Assembly (NCBI GenBank): GCA_003574685.1
Contig: QOCQ01000008.1
Location: 124,001 to 188,000, forward strand
Reading direction: 5' to 3'
Length of the DNA stretch: 64,000 nucleotides
Origin: Rhodospirillaceae bacterium SYSU D60007
GTDB taxonomy: Bacteria; Pseudomonadota; Alphaproteobacteria; Reyranellales; Reyranellaceae
Shown here: piece by piece, positions 13,025 to 15,620 of the stretch
Position numbering within the stretch: the stretch's first letter is position 1
How the letters are laid out: every line of letters starts with the position of its first letter
Position numbers and translations under genes: made by a program
The notes under the pieces: generated by a model
What the model saw: the letters and a program-made list of their open reading frames with translations, nothing else
What the model was told of the DNA's origin: nothing
Databases searched by the model: none

Positions 13025-13471
13025 ATGTCCAATATCCTGGTCCTGATTGGTACCGAATCCGGCAATGCCCAGATGGTGGCCGACGCCGTGCGCGATCCGC
13101 TGGAAGAAGCCGGCCATGCCGTCGCCATCTCCGACAAGGCGACCCATGCCAGCGAATTCGCCGGCCACGATACCCTGCTGGTGATCTGCGCCACGCATGG
13201 CTCGGGCGACATCCCCAGCAACATCCTGCCGCTCTACGAGACGCTGGCGCGCGAAAAGCCTGACCTGTCGCCGTGGCGCTACGGCGTCATTGCGCTGGGC
13301 GACATGACCTACCAGGACACGTTCTGCGGCGGCGGCAAGCAGATGGACGCCCTGCTCCAGCAGCTCGGTGCCCGCAAACTCGGCGAGCGTCTGGAGGTCG
13401 ATGCCTCGACCCAGCCGCTGCCCGACGAGGAAGCCGTGGGCTGGGTCAGGGAGTGGGTCAAGCTGATGTGA
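13025..13471 (+). CDS. Flavodoxin-like (MioC-type) electron carrier
   Basis: This 148-residue protein has the flavodoxin phosphate loop IGTESGNAQMVAD directly after the first strand, a THGSGDIPSN loop and a LGDMTYQDTFCGGGKQMD segment typical of MioC and of the flavodoxin domains of sulfite reductase. It should bind FMN and shuttle electrons. The ATG at 13025 starts the first beta strand; the earlier ATG at 12977 lies inside the palindrome and would add 16 unconserved residues. A partner redox enzyme is not obvious, although several CoA-acid catabolic genes are adjacent. Confidence 0.8.
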   Translation: MSNILVLIGTESGNAQMVADAVRDPLEEAGHAVAISDKATHASEFAGHDTLLVICATHGSGDIPSNILPLYETLAREKPDLSPWRYGVIALGDMTYQDTFCGGGKQMDALLQQLGARKLGERLEVDASTQPLPDEEAVGWVREWVKLM

Positions 13472-13545
13472 ACGAAGTTACCGCTTCTTATCCGGAGAGC
13501 CCGAATGAACAGGCCGTTGCGCAGAGGCATCTTTGACGGACGTGA

Positions 13546-13701
13546 AGCTTTGACCTTTCGATACCGGAGACTGCTGATAGTGAATACGTACCTGTAAAGA
13601 GAAGGGCCTACATTTTTCATTCTTTAAAACATCCCAAAGAAGTAGAGCTCTTACGAAAAGTATATGGAGATCTGTTCGTAGTAATTTCAGTGTACCCGTC
13701 G
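13546..13701 (+). pseudogene. Internal fragment of an AvcD-type anti-phage dCTP deaminase, plus-strand piece
   Basis: Frame 13546-13701 on the plus strand reads through KRRAYIFHSLKHPKEVELL and then RKVYGDLFVVISVYPS. This is the conserved central block of anti-phage dCTP deaminases, which follows the N-terminal kinase-like domain. It has no start codon and a stop just upstream at 13543. The matching N-terminal half lies head-to-head on the opposite strand (13702-14017). If this segment is flipped, it joins that half in frame. The zinc-binding deaminase domain is missing. The region is visibly richer in A+T than its neighbours, which suggests horizontal origin. Confidence 0.7.
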
Positions 13702-14017
13702 ACTCCCTCCGCAACTGATGAAGGGCCAAAACGGATAGCATTACCAAACCATCGCCGTCCCTTGTTTCCCGTCTAAAGACGTCTCCAATGTCCATCAGGG
13801 CGTTAATGCGATCATACTCGCCAGCCCCAGCTTTCGGTATCTGTCGCCGATACTTAGTTGCCCGAAGAAGGTCACTCAGACGAATTATATTCGTAGAGTA
13901 GTCAACACGCCTTAGTTCCTCCTTTAGGCAATGTGTCACGAGCTTCATGTCGATCCCAACTGGACCGACCAATCCGATGAAAAGTTCCGGATCTGTTAGT
14001 GGATCGAGAGCGCTCAT
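13702..14017 (-). pseudogene. N-terminal fragment of an AvcD-type anti-phage dCTP deaminase, minus-strand piece
   Basis: From the ATG at 14017 about 105 codons read as the N-terminal P-loop-like domain of the family: ELFIGLVGPVGIDMKLVTHCL, VDYSTNIIRLSDLLR and then INALMDIGDVFRRETRDGDG followed by LVMLSVLALHQLRRE. After 13703 the frame continues open to 13478 but the residues no longer resemble any deaminase. In the intact family this domain is followed by the block found on the other strand at 13546-13701. Intact AvcD proteins deplete dCTP/dCMP during phage infection. This copy cannot encode the active enzyme because the deaminase domain is absent. Confidence 0.72.
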
Positions 14018-14177
14018 TTGTCGCAAAAACCTGTCAAACCGCAACCATACTACGCATCTCTGATATAGCACTCAAGTGTACATTTGTATTCTTAGCGTTC
14101 CGATCTGGCTGGACTCATCGATGCTCTACTCCCTACTAAACTCTCAACAAACGGTTAGCGAGCCGGAGATCATTTCC

Positions 14178-15620
14178 ATGCCCGACGGCCAGATCCTCAT
14201 CAATGGCGACTGGCGTGCGCCTGCGACCGGCGCGGCGCTGCCGGTGTTCAATCCCAGCGATGGTGCCGAGTTTGCGAAGATTGCGCGCGGCTCCGCCGAG
14301 GATATCGATCGCGCGGTGAAGGCGGCGCGCGCCGCGTTTGAAGGCGGAGCGTGGGGCAAGATGACGGCCGTCGAGCGTGGCCGGCTATTGTCGAAAATGG
14401 CGCAGAAGGTGGCCGACCATGCCGAGGAGCTGGCGGTGCTGGAAGCCCGCGACACCGGCAAGCCGATCTCGCAGGCACGGGCCGATGCCCATGCGCTCGC
14501 ACGCTATTTCGAGTTCTATGGCGGCGCCGCCGACAAGATCCACGGCGAGACGATCCCGTATCTGAACGGCTACACCGTCTTCACCCTGCGCGAACCGCAT
14601 GGTGTCTGCGGCCAGATCATCCCTTGGAACTATCCCATGCAGATCTTCGGGCGCACCGCCTGCGGCGCGCTGACCATGGGCAACGCCGTGGTGATGAAAC
14701 CTGCCGAGGAGGCGTGCCTGTCGGTGCTGCGCGTGGCCGAGCTGATGCTGGAGGTCGGCTTCCCGCCCGGCGCCATCAACATCGTGCCCGGCCTGGGCGC
14801 GGAGGCCGGCGCGGCGCTGGCGGAGCATCCCGGCATCGATCACCTGAGCTTCACCGGCTCGCGCCAGGTGGGCGCGCTGGTCCAGGCGGCTTCGGCGAAG
14901 TTCAACCGTCCCTGCACCATGGAGCTGGGCGGCAAGAGCCCACAGGTGGTGTTCGCCGATGCCGACATGGACGCGGCGTTGCCGTTCATCACCCGCGCCA
15001 TCATCCAGAATGCCGGGCAGACGTGCTCCGCAGGCTCGCGGCTGCTGGTCGAGGACAGGGCCTATGACAGCTTCGTGGGCCGCGTCGCCGAGAAGTTCAA
15101 GGCGTTACGCGCCGGACCGTGGGACCGCGATCTCGATGTCGGACCGTTGATCTCGAAAAAGCAGAAAGAGCGCGTCGATGGCTTCGTGCAGAAAGCCACC
15201 GAAGCCGGCGTGAAACTGCTCGCCGCCGGCGAAACTGCCGCAAACGCGCCGTCGGGCGGCTACTACGTGGCACCGCAGGTCTATGGCGACGTGCCGGTCG
15301 ATCACATCCTCGCGCAGGAGGAAGTATTCGGCCCCGTGCTGGCGGCCATCCGCTTCCGTGACGAGGCCGATGCCATCCGCATCGCCAATGCCACACCCTA
15401 TGGGCTTGTCGCCGGCATATGGACCCGCGACGGCGGCAAGCAAATGCGGCTGGCGAAGGCTGTCCGCGCCGGCCAGGTGTTCATCAACAATTATGGCGCG
15501 GGCGGCGGCATTGAGTTGCCTTTCGGCGGCGTGAAGGGCTCGGGCTTCGGCCGCGAGAAGGGCTTCACGGCCTTGCACGACTTTTCGGTGCTGAAGACCG
15601 TCGCCATACAGCACGGATAG
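14178..15620 (+). CDS. Aldehyde dehydrogenase, betaine-aldehyde-dehydrogenase-like
   Basis: This 480-residue NAD(P)-dependent aldehyde dehydrogenase has catalytic Cys283 (NAGQTCSAGSRLL), general-base Glu249 (TMELGGKSPQ), the IIPWNYP motif near residue 148 and the cofactor loop SFTGSRQVG. It oxidises an aldehyde to an acid. GGAGA lies ten bases before ATG 14178, which begins the conserved domain. The frame extends 34 codons upstream into the A+T-rich deaminase scar, but that part has no family resemblance. The SDR gene 25 bases downstream probably forms a two-step alcohol-aldehyde oxidation pair with it. Confidence 0.87.
   Translation: MPDGQILINGDWRAPATGAALPVFNPSDGAEFAKIARGSAEDIDRAVKAARAAFEGGAWGKMTAVERGRLLSKMAQKVADHAEELAVLEARDTGKPISQARADAHALARYFEFYGGAADKIHGETIPYLNGYTVFTLREPHGVCGQIIPWNYPMQIFGRTACGALTMGNAVVMKPAEEACLSVLRVAELMLEVGFPPGAINIVPGLGAEAGAALAEHPGIDHLSFTGSRQVGALVQAASAKFNRPCTMELGGKSPQVVFADADMDAALPFITRAIIQNAGQTCSAGSRLLVEDRAYDSFVGRVAEKFKALRAGPWDRDLDVGPLISKKQKERVDGFVQKATEAGVKLLAAGETAANAPSGGYYVAPQVYGDVPVDHILAQEEVFGPVLAAIRFRDEADAIRIANATPYGLVAGIWTRDGGKQMRLAKAVRAGQVFINNYGAGGGIELPFGGVKGSGFGREKGFTALHDFSVLKTVAIQHG

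Follow-up and report, generated by a model that had tools for sequence, protein, structure and literature searches.

The systems closest to the locus described here are the anti-phage dCTP deaminases (NF041025; dCTPase in PADLOC; AvcD of AvcID). AvcID is a type III toxin-antitoxin system in which the toxin, AvcD, is a deaminase of this same kind and the antitoxin, AvcI, is an RNA of at least about 171 nt (PMC10511110). We analyzed a 64-kb stretch of DNA (hereafter, the window) that harbors pieces of such a deaminase. The locus shares with the anti-phage dCTP deaminases the N-terminal P-loop-like domain and the SLKHP block that follows it, but in the window this block is inverted and the zinc deaminase half of the protein is absent, and the remnant scores 52-53 bits against the curated NF041025 cut-off of 400. 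Because both the catalytic domain and a continuous open reading frame are lacking, the locus is a remnant of an anti-phage dCTP deaminase, not a working member of the family. Only 160 bp separate the deaminase start from that of the neighboring aldehyde dehydrogenase (ALDH) gene (152 bp and 163 bp in the related genomes G003 and G001), so an AvcI of the published type would have to overlap a gene here. The sole match in an Rfam scan of the window was a tRNA.

Two deaminase pieces in an A+T-rich island

The remnant lies in an island that extends from the stop codon of a flavodoxin-like gene (13025..13471, plus strand) to about position 14172, next to the ALDH gene (14178..15620, plus strand, with its ATG at 14178; Pfam Aldedh, 7.1e-159). 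The flavodoxin-like gene has a match in 71 of 75 genomes of the family, and the ALDH shares 94-95% of its amino acids with its G001 and G003 counterparts. When GC content was measured over 700-bp stretches across the 64 kb, the minimum of 0.474, at position 13451, coincided with the island (mean 0.673, s.d. 0.032).

On the minus strand, positions 13703..14017 encode the deaminase N-terminal (P-loop-like) domain in 105 codons free of stops and frameshifts, beginning with an ATG at 14017 and reading MSALDPLTDPELFIGLVGPVGID...LALHQLRRE. The plus strand carries the inverted block (13546..13702), the SLKHP region normally found 3' of the N-terminal domain, whose 52 codons (13546-13701) translate to SFDLSIPETADSEYVPVKRRAYIFHSLKHPKEVELLRKVYGDLFVVISVYPS. 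The minus piece matches the NCBIfam model NF041025, 'anti-phage dCTP deaminase', over profile positions 1-94 of 437 (4.9e-14), and the plus piece matches positions 102-137 (6.8e-10). Searched separately, the two pieces match the PADLOC dCTPase at 3e-16 and 4e-12, respectively, and phrog_9198 is matched as well. The minus piece is further supported by alignment with the G001 and G003 genes and the plus piece by a six-frame HMM search. A Pfam search of both pieces gave no match, Pfam being without a model for these parts, and in phage records we found two distant relatives only, at 31% identity. The 3' ends of the two pieces touch tail to tail at 13702/13703. The pieces represent consecutive, non-overlapping parts of NF041025 and can be joined in frame, the resulting 157 residues aligning end to end and unbroken with homologues from Pseudomonas, Enhygromyxa, Paenibacillaceae, Acidobacteriota and others. 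Both are single copy in the genome.

The zinc deaminase half (HAE ... PCxxC) was found neither at the locus nor elsewhere in the 5.3-Mb genome. A whole-genome search with the C-terminal half as query picked up only the inverted block plus a single weak 53-residue match, and a family-model search of the whole genome (E <= 1e-10) returned the remnant locus as its single match. A relocated C-terminal half was considered and rejected on the result of the genome-wide query. As it stands, the open frame comprises 197 codons on the minus strand (13478..14071; 179 codons from the ATG at 14017), matches NF041025 positions 1-101 at 2e-14, and consists of the deaminase N-terminal domain, the antisense of the inverted block and a short tail.

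The original prediction had proposed from the letters of the DNA that an AvcD-type deaminase was split here, that flipping the block back would rejoin it in frame with the N-terminal part, that the zinc deaminase domain was missing, and that the island was richer in A+T than its surroundings; the matches and searches above bear out all four points. It had also singled out the palindrome GTCGAC (13698..13703) at the junction. This suggestion did not hold, since the 706-bp island contains 13 six-base palindromes, GTCGAC included, and the one at the junction is not significant; for the same reason we rejected it as a recombination site.

The deaminase site in related genomes

We compared the site with three other genomes of the genus (G001, G002 and G003) and with the 75 genomes of the family. 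In both G001 and G003, this site is occupied by an intact deaminase gene that points the same way as the remnant (L039:1553-3082, 449.6 bits, and L038:3284-4849, 434.9 bits, against the cut-off of 400). Both genes lie on the minus strand adjoining the ALDH gene, from which they diverge as the remnant does; unlike the remnant, they are full length and include the deaminase domain (PF00383) with its HAE and PCHMC motifs. The gap between flavodoxin and ALDH measures 1.9 kb in G001 and 3.6 kb in G003. The flanks of both genomes are 83-88% identical to the window at the DNA level, on the left up to the flavodoxin stop at 13471, where the alignable flank ends, and on the right from 14173; the intergenic stretch that separates the start codons of the divergent deaminase and ALDH genes (14018..14177) cannot be aligned with the congeners. 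In the G003 slot, an ISAzo13-family transposase gene sits behind the intact deaminase (L038:1721-2950, minus strand). In G002 (L040:3302-4430), the flavodoxin gene is followed directly by a ligase gene, which in the window is located beyond the ALDH and SDR genes, and deaminase, ALDH and SDR are all missing.

Outside the genus, the ECH-flavodoxin pair is conserved in the family, but at the 26 loci inspected there, neither this ALDH nor a deaminase occurs within about 1.5 kb. Deaminases are rare in the family, with 4 of 75 genomes above the cut-off. Damaged deaminase genes were also seen at other loci: a Duganella gene has an internal deletion with a frame change (L033:5845-7013), and the gene in G004 has an in-frame TAG (L042:1456-2964).

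The original prediction had read the locus as a record of acquisition, rearrangement and loss, and had called for an alignment of relatives across the site. This alignment yielded the intact copies in G001 and G003 and, in G002, a site from which the ALDH is gone together with the deaminase. The inversion and the absence of the catalytic domain stand, but acquisition by this genome alone does not, because G001 and G003 hold intact genes at a shared site and in a shared orientation.

The deaminases have diverged far more than the genes beside them. Between species, the ALDH genes show dN values of 0.024-0.036 and dS values of 0.38-0.59, and the flavodoxin genes show dN values of 0.035-0.058 and dS values of 0.51-0.63. 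For the three deaminases, dN reaches 0.47-0.61 and dS is saturated (2.5, or beyond calculation), the joined remnant sharing 39-42% of its amino acids with the G001 and G003 proteins, whereas the DNA of the flanking genes is 86-88% identical. This contrast suggests that deaminase alleles have most likely been swapped in one slot between lineages. Fast evolution of the protein in place is disfavored, since synonymous sites are saturated as well. The exchange probably proceeded via recombination in the conserved flanking genes. In a tree of the sampled homologues, the G001 and G003 deaminases form a sister pair (96/89), to which the remnant attaches with weak support (84/81). Because these genes group together, the donor alleles probably came from a related, poorly sampled pool, and as the grouped genes are syntenic, this pool is likely a local one. 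Across four related species, a single site thus seems to have been caught at several stages of turnover, with nearly unchanged flanks around a defense gene that has apparently been swapped, is missing along with its neighbors, or is broken.

Origin of the rearranged locus

The island very probably represents a recently inactivated anti-phage dCTP deaminase in the site that such genes usually occupy in this genus, between flavodoxin and ALDH. One or two illegitimate events would have flipped 157 bp within the gene, an inversion that rests on a single assembly, and about 1.1 kb would have been lost on the flavodoxin side, beginning immediately past the SLKHP block. The deletion perhaps terminated within a small downstream open reading frame, described below. 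The rearrangement looks illegitimate because a search for inverted repeats bracketing the flipped block found none; for this reason, and because the catalytic half is absent, we also rejected a phase-variable (invertible) switch. All 157 deaminase codons are free of stops, which suggests that the loss is recent and postdates the species split: after 0.1 neutral changes per site, such a stretch would still be stop-free with a probability of 0.27, which falls to 0.03 after 0.3 changes per site. A product without the zinc deaminase domain would be unable to deplete dCTP, and because this domain is absent, no dCTP-deaminase defense would be expected from the locus. If slot content is indeed exchanged between lineages, the dead copy could be replaced. 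An inverted defense pseudogene is by itself ordinary decay. Weighing against a remnant, the current frame stays open through the inverted block, which remnants need not show, and a second N-terminal-only copy, described below, exists in G003.

The two pieces could instead stem from two different deaminase genes that were brought together tail to tail, with no inversion inside a single gene. Their third-position GC contents are unequal (0.51 and 0.37), and alleles at the site have most likely been exchanged. We nevertheless regard this origin as very unlikely: the pieces follow one another without overlap or gap, they join in frame with a linker similar in length to that of the G003 deaminase, and both are closer to the G003 gene than to the G001 gene, the two congeners compared.

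Less likely still is that the product of the 197-codon frame remains functional, as a regulator or decoy of deaminase-type defense made up of the N-terminal domain only. The conserved N-terminal residues are retained in the alignment with the G001 and G003 orthologues, and base shuffling puts the chance of the frame staying open through the inverted block and tail at about 1%. G003 contains a second N-terminal-only deaminase frame (162 codons; L049:1453-1938; G003:C15:124316-124621, minus strand), which likewise breaks off in the linker, ahead of the SLKHP block. This frame, however, belongs to a different subgroup from the remnant, and the tail of the 197-codon frame has no known homologue. 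Cuts near profile position 101 did not recur in about 784 genomes of the class and phylum, searched at an E-value limit of 1e-9 that weak N-terminal-only forms may escape; the other partial matches either extend well past position 101 or are C-terminal only, like generic deaminases. An N-terminal-only protein as a recurrent architecture is thus unsupported by these searches.

An assembly or scaffolding artefact is the least probable explanation: the genome is a draft of 58 contigs, but both junctions fall inside one contig of 202 kb, only 157 bp are flipped, these are single copy and not bracketed by inverted repeats, and the missing half is found on no other contig.

A small open reading frame downstream of dCTP deaminases

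Comparing these loci also brought to light a small conserved open reading frame behind several dCTP deaminases, to which neither Pfam nor NCBIfam gives a name. In contrast to AvcID with its RNA antitoxin, the G001 deaminase is followed by an unannotated frame of 61 codons (L039:1345-1530, minus strand), which contains a W-P-x-W-K/M motif and whose stop codon lies about 10 bp from that of the flavodoxin gene. Frames of ~60 amino acids are also found directly 3' of the deaminases in L032, L035, L037, L050, L051, L053 and L114, with hosts among Alphaproteobacteria, Vibrio, Paenibacillaceae and Acidobacteriota. They start between slightly before and about 40 bp past the deaminase stop and have the W-P-x-W-K/M motif in mid-protein. 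In the Vibrio plasmid record, the frame is not in the gene table, which is incomplete.

In a leave-one-out test with HMMs built from seven seeds, the eighth sequence was the best non-seed match among 7,394 open reading frames in seven of eight trials (E-values from 1.5e-10 to 0.0076) and was not recovered in the remaining one. Across 61 loci, the W-P-x-W-K/M motif was matched 11 times on the downstream strand, once in the upstream regions and never on the reverse strand. As this motif was picked after the sequences had been viewed, we place the weight on the leave-one-out test. Weaker matches of the full HMM include the frames downstream of the deaminases in L030, L118, L119, L052, L038 and L034. 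Behind most of the other 65 loci, which chiefly belong to other subgroups, the small frame is absent.

The window may retain a trace of this frame. The 197-codon frame closes with 21 residues that are rich in Ser, Lys and Arg, as are the tails of the small proteins, and it ends 7 bp from the flavodoxin stop, compared with about 10 bp for the small frame in G001. From position and composition, one might guess that the minus-strand segment 13478..13545 (TSVKDASAQRPVHSGSPDKKR, then stop) is the C-terminal tail of a small open reading frame.

We tentatively propose, as a possibility somewhat short of an even chance, that many dCTP deaminase genes form two-gene systems with a downstream protein of ~60 amino acids (W-P-x-W-K/M motif, Ser/Lys-rich tail), that one exchangeable slot in this genus holds such a system, and that the 197-codon frame is a fusion of the deaminase N terminus to the tail of the small protein. 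Should the small protein act as a partner or neutralizer, the published model, in which an RNA antitoxin accompanies the deaminase, would be incomplete for this clade. The remnant alone is a pseudogene, to which the exchangeable slot and the small frame add moderate interest, and the small frame, a by-product of the comparison, may be more important than the pseudogene itself. In plasmids of E. coli and Photobacterium, small open reading frames are located upstream of the deaminases (L134:1709-1894, L137:705-887 and L136:1648-1818), a position in which one might look for an upstream antitoxin, and their last codon before the stop encodes Trp.
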